Below are positions 61,675 through 62,992 of a stretch of 64,000 nucleotides of DNA, piece after piece. Origin of the DNA: Pseudoflavitalea sp. G-6-1-2 (GTDB taxonomy: Bacteria > Bacteroidota > Bacteroidia > Chitinophagales > Chitinophagaceae). The first letter of the stretch is position 1. Every line of letters begins with the position of its first letter. The position numbers and the translations under genes were made by a program. A model generated the notes under the pieces. It had not been told where the DNA came from and ran no database searches. It was given only the letters and a program-made list of their open reading frames with translations. The DNA is taken from positions 682,001-746,000 of the forward strand of contig NZ_JABBGB010000001.1 of NCBI RefSeq assembly GCF_012927185.1. The letters are read 5' to 3'.

Positions 61675-62085
61675 CTATTTTCTTGAATACCTCAACGTGC
61701 CCGTCCAAGTATTCTCAGCACAGCTATTGGAAACAACAGATACCTGCACCACCACCGATGTTGCAACCGGGGTTCCGGTAATGGTGATATTGTTTATACC
61801 CGCTGTGGCAGCAAAAGCTTTGTCCAACACTACCTGATTATTTACTTCGTTTTTAGCAAGCACATTTATTTTGGCGCCGGTTGCCGGAAATCCGTTGGTG
61901 ATATTCACATTGATCAGAAAATCTCCGCCCACCTGTGGTGGAGTTACAGAGCCATTGGCAGGTGTGGTAGTTACCTGCAATTGTGTTTCAGAGCAAGGTC
62001 CATCATCGCCTTTGTCTTTGCTGCTGCATTGCGCAAATGCGGTAATGGTGAGTAATCCAACAATGGCAATAAACAGTTTTTTCAT
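61675..62085 (-). CDS. Small exported protein with Ig-like fold
   Basis: 136 residues. The signal sequence (KKLFIAIVGLLTITAFAQC) may end in a lipoprotein cysteine, though Gln before Cys is not ideal. The mature part looks like one beta-sandwich (VTTTPANGSVTPPQVGGDFLIN onward) with two further cysteines. Function unknown. It has its own terminator and no operon partner. Confidence 0.7.
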   Translation of the reverse strand: MKKLFIAIVGLLTITAFAQCSSKDKGDDGPCSETQLQVTTTPANGSVTPPQVGGDFLINVNITNGFPATGAKINVLAKNEVNNQVVLDKAFAATAGINNITITGTPVATSVVVQVSVVSNSCAENTWTGTLRYSRK

Positions 62086-62167: not shown

Positions 62168-62638
62168 TTATGGCGTATATACCTGAACATTACGGCTGAA
62201 CGACTCTTCGAGTGAGATGAAGGTCTCGGTTCTTTCAATACCCTTGATCTTCTGCAATTCATCGTGCAACACTGATCTCAGCTGATTGATGTCTTTACAG
62301 ATGATCTCTGCAAACATGCTGTAGTTACCGGTTGTATAATTGAGCCGGATGATCTCCGGGATCTTCTGCAATTCTTTGGCAACGAAATCGTAGAGGGAGC
62401 TTTTTTCGAGATAGATGCCGATGAAGGCGATCACATCGTAGCCAAGCGCCTTCATGTCCACATTTAATTTTGTACCTTTAACTATACCTGCTTCCTGCAA
62501 TTTCTTAATGCGGACGTGAATCGTACCTCCGGATACAAATAGTTTCTTACCCAGATCAGCATACGAAATTTCAGCATTATCGATCATTTCATGAATGATC
62601 TGAAGATCCAGTTTGTCAAGATTCAATTTAGCTCCCAT
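62168..62638 (-). CDS. Lrp/AsnC-family regulator
   Basis: 156 residues. N-terminal helix-turn-helix (LDLQIIHEMIDNAEISYADLG, then SGGTIHVRIKKLQEAGIV) and a C-terminal RAM ligand-binding domain (VIAFIGIYLEKSSLYDFVAK). Such proteins form octamers that bind AT-rich DNA in response to amino acids. The upstream region is very AT-rich with the palindrome CAAATATTTG, likely an autoregulatory site. It is divergent from the tRNA-like RNA and may influence its promoter (inferred). Confidence 0.92.
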   Translation of the reverse strand: MGAKLNLDKLDLQIIHEMIDNAEISYADLGKKLFVSGGTIHVRIKKLQEAGIVKGTKLNVDMKALGYDVIAFIGIYLEKSSLYDFVAKELQKIPEIIRLNYTTGNYSMFAEIICKDINQLRSVLHDELQKIKGIERTETFISLEESFSRNVQVYTP

Positions 62639-62747: not shown

Positions 62748-62755
62748 TAAATTTG
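62748..62755 (+). promoter_or_regulatory. -7 promoter element of the tRNA-like RNA (TAAATTTG)
   Basis: A perfect TAnnTTTG followed by CA, with a weak -33 candidate TTTC about 20 bases upstream. Predicted transcription start near 62761, 28 bases before the first paired base of the RNA. Confidence 0.6.
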
Positions 62756-62788
62756 CATTGTAATCGTTCTTAACAAGTCAGCAAATAC

Positions 62789-62957
62789 TGTGGAGTGATG
62801 GAATTTTGGCAGACATGCCCTCTTGTCTCGAGGGTGGGGGTCACAGGATAAACTAAGTGTAATGCCGGACTGGTTCACGCCGGCCCGACTGGGGTTGACC
62901 ACCGCAGGTTGCGCTTATGCTAACTGCCCCGTGGAGGTTCGAGTCCTCCCTCTACAG
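62789..62957 (+). ncRNA. tRNA-like RNA with a very long variable region
   Basis: All arms of a tRNA pair. Acceptor: TGTGGAG (62789-62795) with CTCTACA (62950-62956), one G:U. D-arm: ATG/CAT (62798-62800, 62814-62816) with a GAATTTTGGCAGA loop of leucine type. Anticodon stem: CCCTC/GAGGG (62818-62822, 62830-62834) with loop TTGTCTC, anticodon position GTC. T-arm: GGAGG/CCTCC with loop TTCGAGT (62938-62944). Between anticodon stem and T-arm are 98 bases instead of 4-24, closed by GGGG (62836-62839) with CCCC (62927-62930) and holding a hairpin GCCGG/CCGGC (62864-62868, 62880-62884). Discriminator G; CCA not encoded. C62788:G62957 could make the acceptor stem 8 bp. Own promoter and terminator. 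It may be a functional tRNA, a tRNA mimic or a decayed gene. Confidence 0.7.
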
Positions 62958-62961
62958 CAAC

Positions 62962-62992
62962 AGCCCGAAAGTAATCGCTTTCGGGCTTTTTT
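62962..62992 (+). terminator. Strong intrinsic terminator of the tRNA-like RNA
   Basis: AGCCCGAAAG (62962-62971) pairs perfectly with CTTTCGGGCT (62978-62987) around TAATCG, followed by TTTTT. It starts five bases after the acceptor stem. Confidence 0.92.

Follow-up and report, generated by a model that had tools for sequence, protein, structure and literature searches.

We describe a tRNA-like RNA of Bacteroidota in which a large structured domain replaces the variable loop, and we propose, with a probability of about 0.6, that it is a dedicated non-decoding carrier that would receive aspartate from AspRS and have it amidated by GatCAB, for a regulated supply of asparagine. What we establish is the RNA family together with its structure, identity nucleotides, regulator neighbourhood and co-occurrence with GatB; that the RNA is expressed is a prediction. 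The copy studied here lies in the window, the whole stretch of 64,000 nucleotides of DNA from Pseudoflavitalea sp. G-6-1-2 that was analysed.

A cloverleaf with a multi-helix domain

The RNA occupies positions 62789–62957 (+) from U1 to G73, with C-1 at 62788 and C74 at 62958 (predicted mature ends). Its 7-bp acceptor stem pairs TGTGGAG (62789–62795) with CTCTACA (62950–62956), so that 62789/62956 is the U1-A72 pair, and C-1 lies opposite G73. The D-arm (62798–62816, +) resembles that of tRNA-Leu, with an ATG/CAT stem and G18 G19 C20 A20a G20b numbered by analogy with tRNA-Leu. An anticodon arm (62818–62834, +) follows, with a 5-bp stem and a 7-base loop UUGUCUC (TTGTCTC, 62823–62829) providing G34, U35, C36 and C38. 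The domain that replaces the variable loop holds 98 bases between the anticodon stem and the T-stem (62835–62932, +). The T-arm (62933–62949, +; GGAGG TTCGAGT CCTCC) has a 5-bp stem identical in 29 of 29 relatives. The cloverleaf and the D/T-loop elbow nucleotides of a canonical tRNA are thus present.

The gene appears to be transcribed on its own. A putative -7 promoter element, TAAATTTG (62748–62755, +), presumably of the Bacteroidota type, lies 34 bases before U1, and downstream of it is a leader element, GTTCTTAACAA (62766–62776), that we take to be boxA-like. An intrinsic terminator (62963–62992, +), made of an inverted repeat (hairpin 62963–62986) and a T-run, begins 5 bases past C74. 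Many of 30 fetched copies have a similar TTTAATATTGC and GTTCTT(A/T)A upstream and similar hairpins downstream. A previous sequence-only reading of this DNA had described the four arms, the 98-base domain, the -7 motif and the nearby terminator, and all of these are found in the sequence. The AspRS/GatCAB identity set, the AsnC-like partner gene and the association with GatB, treated below, had gone unnoticed there.

Existing models do not recognise the RNA. ARAGORN reported neither tRNA nor tmRNA over the window, and Rfam 15 gave no match there at the gathering score; a relaxed Rfam search gave six matches, every one under its family's gathering score. Single-sequence folding yielded a z-score of only -1.05, and 26 of 200 shuffles folded equally well.

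The 30 fetched loci gave an alignment of 29 distinct relatives. The structure has 51 pairs in 9 helices; 98.0% of its pair cells form and 18 pairs vary on both sides, covariation figures that are inflated by kinship among the relatives. None of 500 shuffles matched any of five measures, and slid registers dropped to 42–55%. Compensatory changes are plain in the acceptor and in the domain helices P4, P4b, P5 and both hairpins, while the D- and T-stems are invariant among the 29 relatives and so uninformative on covariation. Covariation supports a cloverleaf with a multi-helix domain in the variable-loop position, and conservation with compensatory changes in relatives supports the earlier proposal of a functional, noncanonical, stand-alone tRNA-like RNA.

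From its base outwards, the domain (+ strand throughout) consists of P4 (62836–62839/62927–62930, GGGG/CCCC), P4b (62844–62846/62924–62926, CAG/CTG), an internal loop (GATAAAC 62847–62853/TGCTAA 62918–62923), P5 (62854–62863/62908–62917), a variable hairpin (62866–62887, stem 62866–62873/62880–62887) and a second hairpin with GTTGACCAC (62890–62904). The domain pairing first proposed from the sequence is upheld in its GGGG/CCCC closure, where relatives show compensatory changes, and is displaced in its other two registers: instead of a GCCGG/CCGGC hairpin whose loop TGGTT pairs with GACCA, relatives favour the stem of the variable hairpin, the TGGTT part being hypervariable, and instead of GCAG/CTGC they favour the CAG/CTG of P4b. 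Nor do the members support a tRNA carrying an inserted element, as had also been suggested: no domain-less version was seen among them, although in short forms the domain comes down to about 38 bases. Short forms retain P4, P4b, the internal loop (GAYAAA/CUAA) and a short hairpin.

Identity nucleotides of tRNA-Asp and tRNA-Asn in one RNA

We examined 84 distinct cellular members, taken from 98 rows of model- or blastn-found loci after 8 rows that were short or contained N and 6 duplicates had been removed. In the model alignment, U1-A72, G2-C71 and G73 are present in all 84. The anticodon loop has G34 in 81 members, U35 in 83, C36 in 83 and C38 in 82; three members have no visible G34 (one of them a gap) and two lack C38. 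Other loop positions are freer: position 33 is U in 69 members, G in 12, C in 2 and a gap in 1, and is A in the members from a second class, whereas position 37 is U in 72, C in 5, G in 5, A in 1 and a gap in 1. A decoding-type loop (U33, purine 37), a feature of canonical tRNAs, is therefore not maintained. By a simple pattern, 83 of 84 members have A at position 20a; G1-C72 is absent from 84 of 84, G10 is absent, and the D-loop has bases at 20a/20b.

A second collection was made by pattern, in which six of 120 cellular loci yielded no element, leaving 114. Its cellular matches carry U1-A72 in 98/100 and G73 in 100/100; viral rows carry U1-A72 in 66 of 70 distinct sequences (from 109, with short and duplicate rows left out), and C74 follows G73 in 149/149 pattern-found elements. 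The pattern used for these loci (L133–L252 and L366–L474) fixed GTCTC, so loop counts there, viral rows included, are biased.

According to excerpts of PMC9976931, the five strong AspRS determinants are G73, G34, U35, C36 and C38; Asp-tRNAAsn owes its amidation to U1-A72, that of Asp-tRNAAsp is blocked by G1-C72 and U20a, and G1-C72 helps AspRS to position the acceptor end of bacterial tRNA-Asp. The RNA has the sequence features of a GatCAB substrate, namely U1-A72 without G1-C72 and without U20a. Of the tRNA-Asp features, it has the G34/U35/C36/C38/G73 set and lacks the G1-C72 and U20a set. Among the tRNAs read in the same genome, U1-A72 occurs only in Asn, Gln and Ile(TAT), and the two ordinary tRNA-Asp(GTC) genes both have G1-C72. 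Judged by its nucleotides, the RNA is a merger of two identity sets, the AspRS determinants and the GatCAB-admitting U1-A72, and appears to have one identity set each of tRNA-Asp and tRNA-Asn without the other. It is thus like tRNA-Asp in its anticodon determinants, like tRNA-Asn in its acceptor end (U1-A72, G73) and like tRNA-Leu in its D-arm, but unlike all three in its 98-base domain and in leaving U33 and purine 37 unconstrained.

Distribution in the phylum

The search of close relatives that the sequence-only reading had called for found matches by blastn in all 6 genomes of the genus and in 204 of 294 genomes of the family; the element is not a strain-specific insert with decayed stems. 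A covariance model, which matches the window copy at 62788–62957 (E 7e-45), found strong members (E < 1e-12) in 140 of 248 genomes drawn from the order, with a best E of 2e-46, and in 49 of 295 genomes drawn from the class (hand count). Beyond the class, only G1001 and G1009, both of the second class, were positive among the genomes drawn, with three copies each. Two family genomes missed by the model, G129 and G041, were counted as positive from blastn (E 1.4e-13 and 7.7e-14).

Taking every model match as a member was rejected, the resulting tallies (160/248, 89/295 and 112/296) being too high. Four matches of 83–87 nt at no more than about 60 bits were read, and all are ordinary tRNA-Leu-like genes; the remaining weak matches of this length also appear to be ordinary tRNA-Leu genes. 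A partial tRNA-like match of 29.6 bits at G000:C3:1655364-1655422 (L294) is not accepted by ARAGORN.

Among the matches listed, the closest named carriers are Chitinophagaceae, and named carriers include Chitinophaga, Niabella, Terrimonas, Dyadobacter, Spirosoma and Cyclobacterium, with Algoriphagus, Echinicola, Marivirga, Fulvivirga and Saprospiraceae as further carriers; the model confirms the 80 loci given to it. Plasmid records gave no match to the RNA. Lengths among relatives range from 108 to 211 nt, corresponding to domains of roughly 36–140 bases as judged from total length. Several genomes have two to five tandem copies. The five tandem copies at L112 (G440:C2:110850-111960) are of a 178-nt (TTGTCTC) and a 120-nt (TGGTCTC) form in alternation, as if these were paired sub-types. 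A conserved stretch (about GGTTATTTTGGGTTTATTGTTAATTGACTAAAG) lies 3' of one RNA copy in Algoriphagus, Cyclobacterium, Belliella, Echinicola and Indibacter (L142, L147, L150, L152, L160, L169, L178 and L182) and is possibly the leader of the next gene.

A divergent AsnC-like gene adjoins the RNA

Immediately upstream of the RNA and divergent from it lies an AsnC-like gene of the Lrp/AsnC family of regulators (62168–62638, −), identified by NCBIfam, Pfam and its conserved position. The best PDB sequence match of its protein is E. coli AsnC (2cg4, E 3.9e-32). The best NCBIfam model was AsnC in 5/5 proteins tested (the window gene and four divergent neighbours), with the next model at 78 bits or less; the scores of 150–170 bits lie below NCBI's AsnC equivalog cut-off of 227. 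Elsewhere in the window, at 61675–62085 (−), a frame encodes a lipoprotein-like protein of 136 aa that has no Pfam or NCBIfam match at E 0.001.

Of 72 distinct loci found by model or blastn and having 700 nt or more of upstream sequence, 66 have an AsnC-like neighbour. In the pattern-found set it was present at 69/114 loci, and at 66 of the 99 whose upstream sequence reached 900 nt or more, mostly at a spacing of 118–269 nt; both second-class genomes have it too, also divergent. The 33 of 99 loci that lack it come, among the matches listed with titles, mainly from genera that we assign to Saprospiraceae and Cyclobacteriaceae. The AsnC-like gene is alone in being a neighbour at most loci; the next commonest neighbour cluster is present at 17 of 114. 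Other neighbour names, read by eye, were TrmB, SufB, SufC and acyl-CoA synthetase.

In E. coli, asnC and asnA are arranged divergently. The RNA gene occupies the place of asnA, a difference from E. coli, while in both cases an AsnC-type regulator adjoins a gene for asparagine formation, known or proposed; AsnC of E. coli is an activator of asnA, the gene for asparagine synthetase A, and its effect is lessened by asparagine (excerpts of PMC8707732).

In the family, the RNA and GatB come and go together

We judged the presence of GatCAB from gatB alone, the gatB of the Pseudoflavitalea genome being an open frame. In the draw of 248 genomes from the order, 136 have both the RNA and gatB, 6 the RNA alone, 52 gatB alone and 54 neither. 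Only 6 of 142 RNA-positive genomes from the order thus lack a GatB match; four of these are 61–86% complete, and G398 and G466 are about 99% complete. Within the family, the RNA and GatB agree in 60/60 genomes drawn (50 with both, 10 with neither; two of the 50 are RNA-positive by blastn only). AsnRS and GlnRS are present in all 60, so GatCAB is not required there for either Asn-tRNA or Gln-tRNA.

Because the family genomes are related, this agreement amounts to about three joint changes and not to 60 independent points. On an AsnRS tree the RNA/GatB state switches three times, and supported branches make all three switches necessary; the history may have been three joint losses, or else a single gain with two losses. 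One genome on this tree, G454, sits on a very long branch with odd composition, probably because its frame is wrong; the row is a positive one, and none of the three changes is due to it.

Among the GlnRS-positive genomes tested (n = 72), 58 have the RNA and gatB, 13 have neither, 1 has the RNA only (G466) and 0 have gatB only. The GlnRS-negative genomes (n = 8) all have gatB, with the RNA in G300 and G338 and absent from six. The six GatB-positive, RNA-negative genomes tested, of the 52 with gatB alone, are thus all devoid of GlnRS and need GatCAB for another reason.

Other routes to asparagine exist. An AsnB-type gene scores over the cut-off in 68 of 80 genomes tested, three such genes being found in the Pseudoflavitalea genome, and the idea that the RNA is the sole asparagine route was rejected because AsnB-type genes are this common. 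AsnA was found in 0/60 family genomes, and AsnB-type and AsnA are both missing from seven RNA-positive family genomes (G091, G019, G022, G262, G040, G454 and G472). An AsnB-type match is also missing from G446, of another family, and from three RNA-negative genomes of g31, a genus of the family; these three (G035, G128 and G194) are without AsnA, AsnB-type, GatB and the RNA, and are perhaps asparagine auxotrophs.

A proposed carrier for asparagine synthesis

How might the RNA act? In the proposed mechanism, (i) AspRS would read GUC, C38 and G73 and place aspartate on the 3' end of the RNA; (ii) GatCAB, admitted by U1-A72, would convert Asp-RNA to Asn-RNA; and (iii) asparagine would then be freed or passed on, the weakest step. 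When asparagine is low, the AsnC-like regulator would switch the RNA gene on, as E. coli AsnC does for asnA. The loop retains the bases that AspRS reads and not those that the ribosome needs, suggesting that the RNA is unlikely to decode, so that asparagine would not be put at Asp codons. As a guess, the domain could prevent binding to EF-Tu or the ribosome, or it could dock or recruit the enzymes, for example GatCAB. In the Pseudoflavitalea genome we read an AspRS-like frame of 611 aa, a candidate for the charging enzyme. Against the carrier speak the absence of G1-C72, an aid to AspRS, and of G10, the D-loop bases at 20a/20b, the few members that lack G34 or C38, and the 52 GatB-positive order genomes in which the RNA has no strong match. 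The six RNA-positive genomes with no GatB match, the frequency of AsnB-type genes, the three g31 genomes devoid of every asparagine route looked for, the small number of joint changes behind the family agreement, the AsnC-like scores under the cut-off and the 33 loci with no AsnC-like neighbour count against it as well.

At its widest, the proposal is that a phylum-wide class of non-decoding tRNA-like RNAs forms, with AspRS and GatCAB, an RNA-carried asparagine synthetase under AsnC-type feedback, which phages carry so that asparagine stays available and which explains why AsnRS- and GlnRS-positive Bacteroidota have GatCAB; to this wider picture we give even odds.

Alternatively, the RNA could be a regulatory decoy or sensor that binds AspRS or GatCAB, or whose charging state reports the supply of aspartate and asparagine, and that thereby tunes the enzymes with no part in metabolism as a carrier. 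Its tRNA mimicry, AsnC-like neighbour, structured domain and stand-alone gene would all suit such a role, but a pure decoy need not retain G73, C74 (149/149) and U1-A72 (84/84), and the RNA also occurs on phage stretches without an AsnC-like match, several times among tRNA genes. We consider this role unlikely.

A carrier of aspartate or asparagine could also serve non-ribosomal transfer, with a transferase handing the residue to a peptide, lipid or wall precursor, in the manner of the non-proteinogenic tRNA-Gly of staphylococci. The same identity nucleotides, non-decoding loop and GatB link would be expected of it. However, no aminoacyl transferase was recognised by eye among the neighbour clusters present at 4 or more of the 114 loci, though one may be encoded elsewhere in the genome, and an asparagine-type regulator suits amino-acid supply better, which makes transfer quite improbable.

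The full cloverleaf, the GUC anticodon and the phage tRNA arrays could instead speak for a decoding tRNA for GAC/GAU with an unusual variable arm, or for Asp-to-Asn recoding. This is very unlikely, since the two ordinary tRNA-Asp(GTC) genes are already present, G or C stands in place of U33 in 14/84 members and A does so in the second class, 72/84 have U at position 37, and neither ARAGORN nor Rfam calls a tRNA. A pseudogene, that is, a decayed tRNA-Leu copy carrying an inserted element, would fit the Leu-like D-arm and the four weak short model matches read as tRNA-Leu-like genes, but it is contradicted by covariation and by retention across the phylum and in phages with compensatory changes, and it has next to no chance of being right.

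Relation to known systems

Staphylococci have a non-proteinogenic tRNA-Gly, a tRNA kept for a non-ribosomal job; it is unlike the RNA described here in its amino acid, enzymes and structure, and no amidation is involved. tmRNA is alike in being a tRNA-like RNA with an extra domain, but tmRNA models gave no match in the window, and a normal tmRNA is found elsewhere in the genome.

Closer to the proposed carrier is the tRNA-dependent asparagine synthesis of Bdellovibrio, which takes place on tRNA-Asn with a nondiscriminating AspRS and GatCAB (excerpts of PMC4206432). That system is alike in the order of AspRS and then GatCAB, in U1-A72 and in its occurrence alongside AsnRS and GlnRS, and unlike in that its carrier is an ordinary decoding tRNA-Asn and its AspRS must be nondiscriminating. 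The RNA described here would be a separate carrier with the Asp anticodon GUC, and could serve even a discriminating AspRS. Such a separate non-decoding carrier was not found in Rfam 15 or in the open-access texts searched, though it may have been described elsewhere; the known parts are AspRS, GatCAB and the AsnC-type regulator, the carrier would be the new part, and we can name no known kind of tRNA-like carrier of this sort for amino-acid synthesis.

For many bacteria equipped with AsnRS, GlnRS and an asparagine synthetase, the role of GatCAB is described as open (excerpts of PMC4206432), and for Bacteroidota the RNA offers a direct, testable answer. If the proposal is true, an RNA descended from tRNA has been kept as a cofactor of amino-acid synthesis and not for translation, and may serve metabolism as a working partner made of RNA. 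Should the charging steps prove wrong, the RNA would still be a new family. Its shared presence with gatB, its AsnC-type regulator and its phage copies make for clean genetics.

Phage copies

The RNA pattern is present in 109 IMG/VR contigs, and the covariance model found strong members in 99 of the 100 viral contig stretches given to it. In phage records, blastn returned 8 records, the sole similarity being 43 bases shared with mycobacteriophage tRNA-Asn genes (E 3e-4). An AsnC-like match (E < 1e-15) was found in 0 of 109 fetched viral stretches, 92 of which hold the full element; for most contigs the stretch covers only a part. tRNA or tmRNA genes occur in 15 of 20 viral stretches checked, up to 25 in one, some of the 20 having been picked for visible tRNA-like sequence beside the RNA. 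As the RNA stands beside tRNA genes in phage contigs, phages carry it much as they carry tRNAs. Five phage stretches (L461, L468, L469, L384 and L413) have 9 to 25 tRNA genes, the RNA included, and in three others (L387, L459 and L420) a tmRNA gene lies near the RNA. At L380, the RNA sits in a gap between frames; some 400 bases further on comes a terminase large-subunit gene, and then a portal gene.
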